Below are positions 53,526 to 58,849 of a stretch of 58,849 nt of DNA, piece after piece (position 1 is the first letter of the stretch; each line of letters starts with the position of its first letter). The stretch is from NCBI RefSeq assembly GCF_004212215.1, contig NZ_QVFV01000002.1, positions 547,630 to 606,478 on the forward strand. The letters are read 5' to 3'. The position numbers and the translations under genes are program-made. The DNA comes from Leptolyngbya iicbica LK. Lineage in GTDB: Bacteria > Cyanobacteriota > Cyanobacteriia > Phormidesmidales > Phormidesmidaceae. The notes under the pieces were generated by a model. That model made no database searches, had not been told where the DNA came from, and saw only the letters and a list, made by a program, of their open reading frames with translations.

Positions 53526-54524
53526 ATGACCGCTACTCCCACTAAAACCCAAACTCTCCTCCGGATTGAAGATCTGCAAGTCCACTTTCCAGTAATGGAG
53601 GGGCTGATCTTTCAGCGTCAGGTGGGCAGCGTCAAAGCCGTGGATGGCATTACTTTCGAGGTGCGCCAAGGTGAGACGCTGGGCTTAGTGGGCGAGTCGG
53701 GCTGTGGCAAAAGCACCACGGGCAAAGCCATTTTGCAACTAGAGCGACCCACTGCTGGCAAGATCTATTTTAAAGAGGCCGAACTGACCGCGATAAGTGG
53801 CGAAAGCCTGCGGCAGCAGCGGCGCGAGATGCAGATGATCTTTCAAGATCCCTATGCGTCGCTGAATCCGCGCATGACGGTGGGCAGCATCGTCGGTGAG
53901 CCGTTAGAGGTGCATGGGCTGGCAAGCGGGAAAGAGAAGCGCGATCGCGTGGCGGAACTCTTGCACATCGTCGGCCTCAATCCGAAATTCATCACCCGCT
54001 ATCCTCACGAATTTTCCGGTGGGCAGCGCCAGCGCATCGTCATCGCTCGCGCCCTCGCGGTGAATCCCAAATTCATCGTGGCGGACGAACCCATTGCGGC
54101 GCTGGATGTCTCCATTCAGGCCCAGGTGGTGAACCTGATGCAGAAACTTCAACAGGAGTTGGGGCTAACATATCTCTTCATCGCCCATGATTTGAGTGTG
54201 GTGCGGCATATCAGCGATCGCGTGGCCGTCATGTACCTCGGCAAAGTCGTGGAACTGGCCGATCGCGTTGCCCTCTACGAAAATCCGCTGCACCCTTACA
54301 CCCAAGCCCTGCTGTCTGCTGTCCCCATCCCCGACCCCACCATTGAAGCGAAGCGGGAACGCATCATCCTCGAAGGCGATGTGCCCAGCCCCACCAATCC
54401 CCCCCAGGGCTGCCGCTTCCACACCCGCTGCCCCGTTGCCGTTGATGCCTGCCGCCACAACCCCGAACCCGAATTCAAAGATGCTGGCAATGGTCACTAT
54501 GTTGCCTGTCACTTAGTTAACTAG
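53526..54524 (+). CDS. Dipeptide ABC transporter ATP-binding protein (DppF-like)
   Basis: The second ATPase, 332 residues. Walker A is GESGCGKS at 56-63, with [18 protein letters not shown], the signature FSGGQRQRI and Walker B-like [14 protein letters not shown]. The C-terminal oligopeptide extension has [15 protein letters not shown]. It completes the A-B-C-D-F peptide importer, which has its binding protein, two permeases and two ATPases all on the plus strand between 48560 and 54524. It is preceded by the repeat leader described separately. After it the composition drops sharply to AT-rich. Confidence 0.94.
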
Positions 54525-54746
54525 ATTTTGTATACCACTCGGAATCGTGAAATTCAATTCCAAATATTGAATAAATAGTTGAGTTGTGTCTCAAGAGAAA
54601 ATTTTGCACATGACCTTCCCAAAGGTATGGCAAGATATTGTCAATGTTTCTCTAAGAAATCAAGACAGACTGCATAAAACAAGCATTCATTGATCTCTCG
54701 AAGAAATCAGAACTTATTAACTTATGTTTTTCGTAAAGACTGAAAC
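54525..54746. other. AT-rich upstream region of the ParA gene
   Basis: About 220 bases, much richer in A/T than everything before it, marking the left side of the ParA island. AAATATTGAATAAATAG and TTATTAACTTATG offer promoter-like stretches. No clear iteron or parS-like repeat is visible. Confidence 0.45.
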
Positions 54747-55688
54747 ATGCAAATTACCGCAGTAATAAATTACAAAGGTGGAGTTGGCAAAACCTCCGTT
54801 ACGGCCAATCTAGCTGCTGAACTGGCATGGCTCGGCTATCGCGTTTTGTTGCTTGATATGGATGCTCAAGCAAGTCTTACATTCTCATTTATCAAGCCCG
54901 AAATATGGCAAAAGTCTTATGCTGATTCCAAAACCATCAAGAGATGGTTTGATGCCATTGCCCAGCAAGAGTCCTTTCCATTGAATTCCTTAGTTATTAC
55001 GCCTGAAATAGCGAACTCAAAAATTAGTGAGAGCGGCAATGGTGGCAGACTTGATCTAATAGCATCTAATCTTGGACTTATTAATGTTGATCTCGAACTT
55101 GCAACTCAACTTGGTGGAGCCACGCTAAATCAGACCAAATTAAATTATTTGAAAGTTCATCGTCGTTTAGCTGAAGGTTTGGCAGAAATCAGTAACAATA
55201 GTTATGACTTTGTCTTGATCGACTGTCCTCCAAATTTCAATATCGTCACGAAAAACGCAATTGTTAGCAGTGACAACATTTTAATTCCTGCCAAACCTGA
55301 CTATCTATCAACTTTGGGGATTGACTATTTAATCAAAAGCGTGAATACTCTGGTCGAAGAATACAATGAGTTCAGTGAGGTTGGGGATAGTCTAGATGTT
55401 CCATTGATCAATCCCAAAATACTCGGCGTAGTATTCACGATGGTTGAGATAAGAAGCGGAGACGCAATTTCGGCATTACGTCCATTCATCAGACAAACTG
55501 AGAAATTAGGCCTTCCTGTTTTTGAGCAAAGATTGAGAGAAAATAAAACAATGTATGCTGACGCCCCTCAATATGGTGTCCCAGTGGTGCTAAATCGTTA
55601 CTCTAGCTCAACCCATAAAGACGTTGCACAAGAGCTTGAAACATTTGCAAGTCAGTTTATTGAAAAGTCTGGGCTTCGAAGAAAATGA
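54747..55688 (+). CDS. ParA/MinD-family ATPase
   Basis: A 313-residue deviant Walker-A ATPase. KGGVGKTS spans residues 10-17 with the signature lysine K10, DMDAQ is at 37-41, and Walker B-like DFVLIDCPP is at 154-162. Such ATPases form ATP-dependent dimers that position plasmids, chromosomes or protein complexes. Compared with minimal ParA it has an insert at about 52-105. No N-terminal HTH precedes the P-loop, so it is a small Type Ib-like form. No ParB gene or parS cluster is seen; instead a 126-residue partner overlaps its stop (ATGA). AT-rich codon use unlike its neighbours suggests acquisition by transfer. Confidence 0.9.
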   Translation: MQITAVINYKGGVGKTSVTANLAAELAWLGYRVLLLDMDAQASLTFSFIKPEIWQKSYADSKTIKRWFDAIAQQESFPLNSLVITPEIANSKISESGNGGRLDLIASNLGLINVDLELATQLGGATLNQTKLNYLKVHRRLAEGLAEISNNSYDFVLIDCPPNFNIVTKNAIVSSDNILIPAKPDYLSTLGIDYLIKSVNTLVEEYNEFSEVGDSLDVPLINPKILGVVFTMVEIRSGDAISALRPFIRQTEKLGLPVFEQRLRENKTMYADAPQYGVPVVLNRYSSSTHKDVAQELETFASQFIEKSGLRRK

Positions 55689-56065
55689 ATCAAGATATTT
55701 TCACAAGCTTGCTAAAGCAATTCACTCGATTCATAGACCGTCTTACAGATGAAGATATCTCAGCTCTCAAGTCTGGGAAAAAGATTTTGTCTTTTAAACT
55801 CATTGAAGATCAAAAAGCAAGTCGAGAAAACAAGGATTTGTCAGAATTTCGTAAGTTGGCAGACCAGCTTATGGAAATCAACTCTAGAGTTGAAGCAGAG
55901 AACCTTTTAGATAATCTAAAAAAAAAGAACTTGATTGAGCTTTCAAAGTTCCTCGATATTCCCGTCCAAAGCCGCGAAAATATATCTAAAATAAAGGAGA
56001 AAATAATTGAGTCTACCGTTGGATATAGGCTGAGATCTCAGGCGATACAGAGAAGTACTGACTAG
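55685..56065 (+). CDS. Partner protein of the ParA ATPase (126 aa, unrecognised)
   Basis: Translationally coupled to parA by an ATGA overlap. The N-terminal 70 residues are helical and charged (FTRFIDRLTDEDISALKSGK). Residues 72-122 form a second helical module, with NLIELSKFLDIPVQS followed by ISKIKEKIIESTVGYRLRS. This resembles SAP/Rho-N-like helix-loop-helix DNA- or RNA-binding modules (L...LA..L.I...S...L...I). I recall similar C-terminal modules beside ParA genes elsewhere but cannot name a family. It may take the ParB role (adaptor or ATPase stimulator), which is inference. It is basic overall and has no membrane helix. Confidence 0.7.
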   Translation: MNQDIFTSLLKQFTRFIDRLTDEDISALKSGKKILSFKLIEDQKASRENKDLSEFRKLADQLMEINSRVEAENLLDNLKKKNLIELSKFLDIPVQSRENISKIKEKIIESTVGYRLRSQAIQRSTD

Positions 56066-56211
56066 GCCACGCTCCTTGCTTTAAAGCAGTTCTTTATAGT
56101 TGTGAATTCTGCCAATATCCCCATTTTGATTTCAGTCTTGGCTCAGGAAAAATCCTTTATAGTGAAGATACTAGCAGCCGCTCAACTCAGCCGTTAAGCC
56201 AATCGCGAACC

Positions 56212-56733
56212 ATGAAAATAGCCGAACGTTATATCGTTCTTGCCAGTCATAACCAGAGAATGAATGCGCGATTATTCAGATTGGTTTCATCGCTGGATGT
56301 AGCTAGCCAAACTGAAGACAAAGGTGCTTTCTTTGGCTCTATCCTCGGCACCTTGAATCACATTATTTTTGGCAATCACTTTTTACTGACCCGGGTTCGC
56401 GCCCTCATCAATCGCCCCTCACCGTTGGATGCCATACCCCCACAATGGGACTTCCAACCCGATAAACAGTACGGGGCTAGCGTGGCTGAATTAGCGACTA
56501 TCTGCGCCGACATTGATCAAGCCGTCTGCGAATTCGTGAGTACTTTGGATGAGCGTGACTTAGGCAAAGAAACCGATGATGCTATCCCGCTATGGGCGTT
56601 GCTTGATCAACTCTTCCAGCATCAAACCCACCATCGTGGCCAAGCGACCACCTTGTTGTCACAGTGTGGCGTAGACTACCCCTCCTTCGCCGATGTGATC
56701 GGCACCCTCCAGGGAGAATCAGCGCCGTTTTAA
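56212..56733 (+). CDS. DinB-like four-helix metal-binding protein
   Basis: A 173-residue DinB/YfiT-superfamily protein. The probable metal ligands are H50 (LGTLNHIIFGNH), H137 and H141 in QHQTHHRGQATTLL, the hallmark H-x3-H-R-x-Q pattern. Members include thiol transferases (bacillithiol or mycothiol dependent) and many uncharacterised damage-induced proteins. WDFQPDKQYG and CGVDYPSFADVIGT resemble those of proteobacterial and cyanobacterial DinB proteins. The composition returns to that of the main chromosome, so the AT-rich island ends before it. The ATG is clear and the gene stands alone. Confidence 0.87.
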   Translation: MKIAERYIVLASHNQRMNARLFRLVSSLDVASQTEDKGAFFGSILGTLNHIIFGNHFLLTRVRALINRPSPLDAIPPQWDFQPDKQYGASVAELATICADIDQAVCEFVSTLDERDLGKETDDAIPLWALLDQLFQHQTHHRGQATTLLSQCGVDYPSFADVIGTLQGESAPF

Positions 56734-56854
56734 GAGTTTTGCTCCGACAGACGAGTTCATTTCCAGGGAATATGATTCGGATTGGGCCACAAAAGCGGTT
56801 CAAGGCTTCGGCTGGTTGGCGACCCGAGCAGCGAGGGGAATGACCGCTCAGTTG

Positions 56855-57787
56855 CTACCTGAAGCGACCGAGTGAAGCGACACTCACCGTGACAATGCCT
56901 ACGCCCAAAAGTTGGATGCTGGCCAGCGTTTCGCGAATGGCAACCCAGGCCAGCACCACAGTTAATGCTGGGTTGGCCGAGCCGAGCATCGAGGCTAACG
57001 TCGCCCCAATATATTTGATGCCAGAGTTAAACAGCATGTGACCGGAGAAAGTCACGATGCCAGAAATCAGGCTCCAAATCCAAATCGGCGTCCAAGCTAG
57101 ATCTTGCGCATCGGTAATCGGCCAGACTACCAGACAGATGGCGGCAAACAGCAGCGTCAGGGCAAAGCTGAGCCAGGTATACGTGAGCGGATGGAGATAA
57201 TCAAAGCTTTTTTGGGCGTTGACAGTATATGCTGCGTAGGCCACACCACTAGCGACTCCCAGCACTGCCCCGACCCAACTGCCGCCCCCTGACCATTGCT
57301 CTGCCGGAATCGTCAAGGCGCTACCCATCATGATGCAGCCCATAATGCCCCACTGCATCGCACTCGGACGCTGCCCTAAAAAGCACCACGATAACAGTGC
57401 CGTAAAGAGGGGAAAAGTGAAAAACAAGGTAAGGGCGATCGCGGTGGCAATGAGACCAATCGAGACATACAGCAGCGCCAGGTAAGTGAACATTAATAGG
57501 CCACCAGCGATCGCGTGCCCCAAAGCCTGCCGCTCACTAGGCTGTGCCAACTGGCGCACCTCCTTCCAGATGGGGGGATGCAGTCGACTGACGAGCAAAC
57601 CCATGAGTGGCACAGCCAGCACCATGCGCAACAGCAACAGCAAAAAGGAATTGTGTAGCGTTGGGGCCAAAAAGCCGCCAGTCACACCAATGCCGATCAA
57701 CGTTTGCTCGGCAAACAAAATGCGCACCACGACGTTTTGAATGCAAAAGAATAGTGACGACAGCAGAATTAAGATGAATCCGAGCAC
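56855..57787 (-). CDS. EamA-family (DMT) transporter
   Basis: A ten-helix inner-membrane carrier of about 310 residues, with two EamA repeats (about 3-150 and 160-305). The start is set at GTG 57787, preceded by AGGA 6 bases away on the minus strand. The in-frame ATG at 57898 would add 37 residues that look non-coding. Motifs seen include SSLFFCIQNVVVRILF at the start, LLRMVLAVPLMG, FFTFPLFTALLSW and the second-repeat SANPALTVVLAWVAIRETL. DMT carriers export amino acids or other metabolites; the substrate is unknown. It is convergent with the DinB gene. Confidence 0.85.
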   Translation of the reverse strand: MLGFILILLSSLFFCIQNVVVRILFAEQTLIGIGVTGGFLAPTLHNSFLLLLLRMVLAVPLMGLLVSRLHPPIWKEVRQLAQPSERQALGHAIAGGLLMFTYLALLYVSIGLIATAIALTLFFTFPLFTALLSWCFLGQRPSAMQWGIMGCIMMGSALTIPAEQWSGGGSWVGAVLGVASGVAYAAYTVNAQKSFDYLHPLTYTWLSFALTLLFAAICLVVWPITDAQDLAWTPIWIWSLISGIVTFSGHMLFNSGIKYIGATLASMLGSANPALTVVLAWVAIRETLASIQLLGVGIVTVSVASLGRFR

Positions 57788-58088: not shown

Positions 58089-58849
58089 TAGCTAGAATGC
58101 TTGGAGTCCTTAAGTTCTAGCCTATGAGATGCCCGCACTGGCAGAGTGAACGAACCGTGAAAAACGGCACTGCCGTATTGAAAGCCCTCCCTCGGCAACG
58201 ATATCTGTGTCGTCAGTGTGGCAAACGGTTTAACGAACGGACGAATACGCCTATGGCGCGACTGAGGACGCCAGTTTCACTCGTGTCTTCAGCCTTGAAT
58301 GTCCGCACAGAAGGCTTGGGGCTGCGGGCCACGGGCCGCGCCTTTGGCAAGTCCCATCGCACGATTACCCGATGGGAAACGCGGTTGTCTGACCAAGTGA
58401 CTCCCTGGTCTCCATCGGCCCCAGCAACAGCGGCCGTCACTCTGGAAGGCGATGAAGTTTACACTCGCGTCGGCGAGAACCTTCCCCCCCAGTGAGTCGG
58501 AAGGGTGGACGATGCACTTTATCGAACGTCAGAGCCGCTACTGGGTGGCCGCCCACGCCGGTCAAAAAAAACGAGCAACTCTTTGACACAGGCACCGCAC
58601 AGCCTTGGCAGTGGTCAGCACCCGCCCAGTTCATTCGATGGTTCGCCGTTCGCGTAGCGTGCCGCAGACTTAGGTGAGCGGCGCTATGGTAACGCTTTAG
58701 GGTCACTGGCGAGTATGTTTCTCAAAAGGGGCGAAACTACACCTGCCTATCGGCGACGGAAAGTTTGGCGACAGGGGCTAGAAGTAGCGATAAAAATCAA
58801 AGGTTCCCAAGGACAACGCCGCGTCGTTTGGCTCAAAAGCGCCTCCCCT
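58084..58849 (+). mobile_element. IS1-family element, degraded, cut by the window end
   Basis: The element begins near GGTGATAGCTAGAATGC (left terminal inverted repeat inferred). It carries the transposase remnant from 58124 and runs past 58849, so the right end and target duplication are not visible. Homopolymer indels and a short insertion within the transposase show it is no longer autonomous. Confidence 0.7.
58124..58849 (+). pseudogene. IS1-family transposase, frameshifted remnant
   Basis: The zinc-finger/HTH part is readable (RYLCRQCGKRFNERTN, then GKSHRTITRWETRL) up to EGDEVYTRVGENLPP at 58489. One extra C in a run of seven moves the frame to SESEGWTMHFIERQSRYWV. One extra A in a run of eight moves it again, to EQLFDTGTAQPWQW and FIRWF. 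A 25-base segment (58650-58674, starting GTTCGCGTAGCGTGCCGC) then interrupts FA/GERRYG. After it, ASMFLKRGE and YRRRKVWRQGLEVAIKIKGS follow to the end. The first zinc cysteine pair is also damaged (CPHW instead of CPHC). At least three lesions make it inactive. Confidence 0.82.

Follow-up and report, generated by a model that had tools for sequence, protein, structure and literature searches.

The two-gene cassette analysed here, which encodes a ParA-type ATPase and a small helical partner protein, is best read as a horizontally spread anti-phage (anti-mobile-element) system, a reading to which we give a probability of roughly 60%. It is probably a so far nameless system of this kind rather than a leftover of plasmid partition. 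We favour this reading because the pair recurs in distant taxa and is often found among phage-defence genes or in the cargo slots of prophages. No description of the pair was found in the freely accessible main-text literature. If it does protect cells from phage, then an ATPase of the DNA-segregation type has been recruited for immunity, together with a dedicated adaptor, in at least 17 phyla. Prophages and islands contain genes annotated as 'ParA family protein' plus 'hypothetical protein' that may be taken for partition genes, and such annotations would then have an explanation. The presence of the pair in E. coli makes testing simple.

The locus and its two proteins

The window, by which we mean the whole 58,849-nucleotide stretch of Leptolyngbya iicbica LK DNA that was analysed, contains the following features.

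54525–54746, plus strand: AT-rich leader 5' of the ParA gene, with two 14-nt near-copies (at 54649 and 54696)
54747–55688, plus strand: ParA-type ATPase of 313 aa with a Soj fold and KGGVGKTS at residues 10–17
54774–54797, plus strand: deviant Walker A motif KGGVGKTS (ParA residues 10–17), N8 to T16 being invariant in 48 aligned sequences
55685–56065, plus strand: all-helical partner protein of 126 aa, overlapping the ParA gene by 4 bp (stop/start ATGA)
55919–56011, plus strand: tentative SAP/Rho_N-like helix-loop-helix (partner residues ~79–109), from weak profile and structure matches
56000–56047, plus strand: the most conserved stretch of the partner, a C-terminal helix (residues 106–121) with consensus K-I-I-E-x-T-x-G-x-R-L-R-S-x-A-I

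The sequence-only reading of this DNA had described two open reading frames with a stop/start overlap and a KGGVGKTS motif, lying in an abruptly AT-rich patch between a peptide transporter and a DinB gene with no parS array, and in all of this it was correct. The frame coordinates and the ATGA junction agree with it, and the three 500-bp windows covering 54501–56000 are each 37–39% GC, against 60% in the preceding window and 46% and 56% in the two that follow (among the 500-bp windows listed, the lowest value outside the patch is 43.6%). The cassette as a whole is 39.1% GC and the window 53.8%. The upstream flank is, judged from its sequence, a 332-aa peptide ABC-transporter ATPase and the downstream flank a DinB-family protein (Pfam); neither is a defence gene. 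Between 54400 and 56300 there is no parS-like repeat array, and promoter-like matches in the same interval show no excess over shuffles, with none inside the leader (54525–54746), whose two near-copies are possibly due to chance.

The octamer GCGATCGC, which we take to be a cyanobacterial mark, has 94 copies in the window, where 1.75 would be expected, and is absent from 54221–57435, the widest gap between copies in the window; the cassette lies inside that gap. An attempted empty-site comparison found a DinB match in one of five other genomes of the genus (34%). Elsewhere in the window, an ORF at 58124–58495 resembles, by eye, the N-terminal part of an IS1-type transposase.

The larger protein is a ParA-type (Walker A cytoskeletal) ATPase, having both a deviant Walker A motif with its signature lysine and a Soj-like fold. 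Its matches include Pfam AAA_31 (1.5e-37) and the PHROG for ParA-like partition (4.2e-48); of 30 NCBIfam models matched, the 25 listed all stay below their cut-offs. The five solved chains closest to the predicted structure (pLDDT 91.9) are Soj and ParA proteins (Z 31.6–32.5, 251–254 residues aligned). The ATPase motifs are intact: D37, D39 and D159 are, like the Walker A residues, invariant across the alignment of 48 ParA proteins (A2). Roughly 55–60 residues are additional to this fold; an alignment with three other ParA proteins places most of them between switch I and Walker B, an interval that also contains the invariant W54 and T63 (48 sequences). The genome itself encodes one ParA of the cassette kind, the next best match being 39% identical over residues 2–211.

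The partner has no match at curated cut-off in Pfam or NCBIfam, none in PADLOC and a PHROG match at chance level only. The earlier claim that it is not ParB stands as far as such searches reach: no ParB model in Pfam or NCBIfam matches the window's partner at E values up to 1, and comparison of profiles with 72 members of the partner family found no ParB family among the 25 listed of 72 weakly matching families. The members compared are those of alignment A1, comprising the window's protein and 71 of 77 partners from other genomes, without L040, L050, L082, L084, L085 and L088, which were near-copies or masked. Mean column identity is 16% for the partner (72 rows) against 59% for ParA (48 rows), and the best conserved partner positions are G113 (65 of 72 rows), I121 (63), S118 (61) and A120 (61).

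Structural comparison of the all-helical partner model (pLDDT 91.5, pTM 0.61) gives hints rather than an assignment. A fold search against solved structures returned no match at 0.001, nor did one against a viral structure library, where two of the rows shown were named for Rho termination or HeH/LEM; when the partner alignment was run as a profile against the PDB, the best match (E 0.008) was a designed trimer. Residues 64–126 align with a stretch of 1zbh (Z 7.6, rmsd 3.3, 61 residues aligned) and the partner aligns with DEK (Z 5.5, rmsd 4.5, 67 residues aligned), both scores being too low to be relied on for helical proteins; 1zbh and DEK both carry SAP domains. Profiles of Rho_N, SAP_new25 and SAP weakly match four, four and two of the 72 partners, respectively (best 2.8e-6), the window's own partner being unmatched. 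Together, these predicted-structure and profile matches weakly suggest that the C-terminal half may be SAP/Rho_N-like.

Six Micromonospora partners (76–96 residues) retain essentially only the C-terminal half. At the other extreme, nine partners are 186–224 aa long (L071, L073–L076, L078, L079, L086 and L087), and in L074 and L078 the partner profile matches twice side by side, perhaps a duplicated domain.

Pairing and spread across genomes

ParA and its partner form a real unit, paired far beyond chance. A search of a species-genome collection found 139 ParA relatives, of which the best 80 were kept (45–68% identical, nearly all almost full-length). Because the retrieval step used peptide patterns from a single ParA, the census is biased towards close relatives; gene calling followed a simple open-frame rule, and the longest open frame was taken as the partner. 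Two relatives, L061 and L072, have too little downstream sequence for a partner to be judged. In 77 of the 78 others a homologous partner starts no more than 21 bp past the ParA stop, and in 44 of these 77 pairs the partner touches or overlaps ParA. The sole exception, L068, has a ParA without a partner; a partner without a nearby ParA (L200) lies on a separate contig of the same Desulfobacterales genome, so that this may be a split or decayed pair.

The partner is also present beside ParA in all eight E. coli matches and in all four close relatives on predicted viral contigs (L089–L092), and searches with the partner query or profile found five further places with an adjoining ParA, namely G064, G347 and G273, which belong to the window's phylum, and G540, with two additional copies. 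The last of these, a Dactylosporangium genome, has three copies of the pair (L077, L198 and L199), whereas a single copy is present in most of the 48 genomes searched. No neighbour besides the partner recurs to any extent, the largest cluster spanning only 6 of 79 loci.

The partner is co-inherited with its ATPase. Distances between ParA proteins and between partners are correlated across 70 loci (r 0.68, with none of 2000 shuffles as high and host kinship ignored), and the correlation is 0.60 over the 59 loci without partners of odd length. Both this analysis and the ParA tree additionally leave out L028 and L081.

The spread of the pair across phyla is patchy. The 69 relatives on the ParA tree represent 17 phyla, as labelled in the titles of records that include many metagenome bins, which may contain foreign contigs. 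The tree has 70 rows, and placing the 17 phyla on it requires 24 changes, against a minimum of 16. The phylum labels nevertheless cluster far above shuffles and there has therefore been inheritance too, beside horizontal spread. The window's ParA is sister not to that of Nostoc but to a ParA from a Verrucomicrobia metagenome bin (support 100/99). The pair reaches very distant bacteria and one archaeon, a methanogen, and is found also in Nostoc and in E. coli prophages. Counting the window's own genome each time, the partner occurs in 3 of 386 genomes of the phylum and in 2 of 143 relatives. Low GC is general: in 61 of 68 loci the cassette has a lower GC content than its flanks, the mean difference being 9 points.

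Recurrence of the pair as a two-gene unit in unrelated genomes was the test that the sequence-only reading had set itself, and with 77 of 78 relatives and 17 phyla it is supported. Its interpretation of the cassette holds in part: an orphan ParA unit recurs with a partner that shows no ParB domain and without an NCBIfam match at cut-off for either protein, while the roles suggested for it fare less well (see below). The context of the relatives favours phage defence, a role that reading had not proposed.

Defence genes and the P2 prophage slot

Relatives of the cassette show enrichment both next to known defence genes and within a defence slot of prophages. We compared the seven genes nearest to the pair in 20 genomes with long contigs (140 proteins) with those of a control made up of up to seven genes from one random 12-kb region per genome, whose centre is over 50 kb distant (137 of 139 proteins; a single draw). 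At 1e-20 the pair's neighbours match 80 PADLOC families and the random regions four. The figure of 80 is no count of systems because many families match one protein, and the families derive from a smaller number of proteins. In a wider set of 137 immediate neighbours, 175 PADLOC families are matched at 1e-8, those among the 25 listed including methyltransferases and AriA; in Pfam the same 137 proteins give at most four members per family among the 25 listed of 151. Neighbour set A3 excludes proteins below 80 aa or of 1200 aa and above (137 of 140 were kept by the upper limit), and sets A4 and A5 exclude those below 100 or above 1200 aa.

Ten neighbours in other genomes, chosen for size, were also scanned singly: three match PADLOC and seven do not. 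The pair has as neighbours an AAA protein that PADLOC calls IetA (L042) and a UvrD-like helicase (L066), each from a broad family, and in L070 it lies next to a type IV restriction enzyme of nearly full length.

The clearest setting is provided by E. coli. With the Rahnella pair as queries, the cassette was found in 8 of 5426 E. coli genomes. Six copies lie between a DinI-like or replication endonuclease gene and the portal gene of a P2-like prophage, and two lie downstream of an integrase at tRNA-Asn. The interval between replication endonuclease/DinI and portal in P2-like prophages is a defence hotspot according to PMC9122126, and the same interval is so described in PMC9519451. Such slots hold other kinds of cargo as well, PMC9122126 reporting a putative plasmid-partition system in around a fourth of them and a toxin in about 2%. 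Ten genes from the E. coli pair regions were scanned, none of them an immediate neighbour of the pair in L157 or L162, and seven match PADLOC. In L159 the genes adjoining the pair are 3HP-like, matching PADLOC Hp1, Hp2 and Hp3 (4e-143 to 1e-244), and the corresponding positions in L160, L161 and L163 are also occupied by genes, with two or more of the three accessions identical. A three-gene system from the P2 hotspot is reported to protect against P1 (PMC9122126), and judging by the names Hp1–3 would be this system. Its proteins differ from those of the cassette, which resembles the hotspot systems of that report in occupying the same slot and, in L159, in lying beside Hp1–3 matches. Among the other E. 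coli copies, L156 has PDC-S42 three genes upstream of the pair, with two small unmatched genes intervening, L158 has ThsB and ThsA (Thoeris) at 6–7 kb and L160 has PD-Lambda-1 elsewhere within the pair's prophage.

It is thus the relatives, and not the window's own site, that lie in defence islands and prophage defence slots and show the patchy spread of such systems.

Alternative functions and a possible mechanism

Plasmid partition was the explanation considered first. It would make the pair a partition or maintenance module in which ParA and an unusual centromere-binding partner stabilise prophages, ICEs or islands, for example on excision. The nearness of the fold to Soj and ParA chains speaks for this, as do the six E. 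coli copies in prophages, the two beside an integrase and the four close relatives with a partner on predicted viral contigs (from a scan that gave 67 relatives in all; in L092 the ParA frame is broken). In addition, a putative plasmid-partition system is reported for around a fourth of P2-like phages in this same slot (PMC9122126). The cassette is unlikely to be that common system, since it occupies six P2-like prophages while 1264 E. coli genomes have a match to a P2 portal query. Six other P2 slots inspected for the partition system have no gene annotated as partition, and the main text of PMC9122126 does not mention ParA.

Searches of plasmid and phage records weaken partition further. At 1e-30 the ParA of L051 matches none of 72,556 plasmid records and that of L025 a single one, while the L025 protein matches none of 50,697 phage records. 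The single plasmid match (L244:5923–6428, Vibrio plasmid pMBL287) is a truncated ParA directly after qatD in a Qat operon (qatC-qatD), with no partner found in the 12.4 kb of sequence around it. The window's partner has no plasmid match. The window's ParA matches at least 5000 plasmid and 113 phage records, all below 60% identity (36% or less in the 40 plasmid rows listed). Compared with ParABS, the cassette shares with Soj/ParA the fold, the deviant Walker A motif and the conserved ATPase residues, but its ParA has the insertion described above, its partner lacks a ParB domain by sequence, its locus lacks a parS-like array and its family hardly occurs in the plasmid records searched. Taken together, we regard partition as unlikely. 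The earlier suggestion of island segregation or mobile-element maintenance is not supported, because the queries used found the family to be almost missing from these records, although the E. coli copies do occupy prophages and integrase islands.

A second possibility is a spatial organiser in which ParA waves on the nucleoid carry a protein assembly for which the partner is the cargo adaptor, as with the carboxysome-positioning McdA–McdB. McdB, the partner of McdA, is small and is not ParB, so the two-gene layout is similar, and McdA is among the structural matches of the window's ParA (6non_B, Z 29.0). The cassette differs in having no recurring cargo gene beside it at 79 loci, a result that also tells against the earlier idea that it positions protein complexes, and its patchy spread, down to those 3 genomes of 386 in the phylum, is unlike that of a housekeeping organiser. 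We consider this explanation very unlikely. A toxin–antitoxin or regulatory pair, hitch-hiking selfishly in variable regions without direct anti-phage action, would fit the small size of the gene pair, the 44 of 77 pairs that touch or overlap and the patchy occurrence in variable slots. Neither window protein is toxin-like in Pfam, NCBIfam or PADLOC, and the far greater conservation of ParA than of the partner says little either way; such a role seems to us quite unlikely.

How the preferred anti-phage system might work can be sketched only tentatively. ATP-bound ParA dimers of other family members coat DNA without sequence specificity, and those of the cassette may do the same. The partner would then serve for targeting and as the switch: the SAP/Rho_N-like half would contact nucleic acid, while the arginine-bearing C-terminal helix would engage ParA and set ATP turnover. 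On infection, the complex might load onto phage DNA or phage nucleoprotein and there block replication or packaging, or else trigger an effect harmful to the infected cell. For this specific form of the proposal, a widespread two-protein immune system in which a SAP-like adaptor helps a ParA-type ATPase to recognise or trap invading DNA, we would offer somewhat short of even odds.

A precedent for phage protection by a ParA-type protein is GiPD474 from the Gifsy-1 prophage, a single 1086-bp gene in a repressor region with a Walker motif at residues 29–34, which lowers plating of FO1, Alf5 and T4, while that of T7, SP6, LPST153, Jbel, VpaE1 and S16 is not lowered (PMC12724215). Like the cassette it places a ParA/AAA_31 ATPase in prophages, and its protective effect was demonstrated by its authors (PMC12724215). 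The two are compared by description only, GiPD474 being one gene near repressors (PMC12724215) and the cassette two genes. We think that GiPD474 belongs to another ParA branch because it is a single gene near repressors and because the viral scan gave only four close relatives of the cassette.

A one-gene ParA-like family was considered as a candidate for GiPD474 and set aside: its 37 viral loci have GGVSKT from residue 12 (residue 10 in one fragment) and not GGVGKT at 29–34. Two of its members share 23% and 24% identity with the window's ParA, and we equate the family neither with GiPD474 nor with the cassette ParA. Its proteins (L201:3486–4559; L203:4001–5077; L205–L241) are 346–360 aa where complete. 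In the enterobacterial prophages L201–L203 they adjoin repressor genes, a placement like that of GiPD474, and partial relatives occur in 109 of 5426 E. coli genomes.
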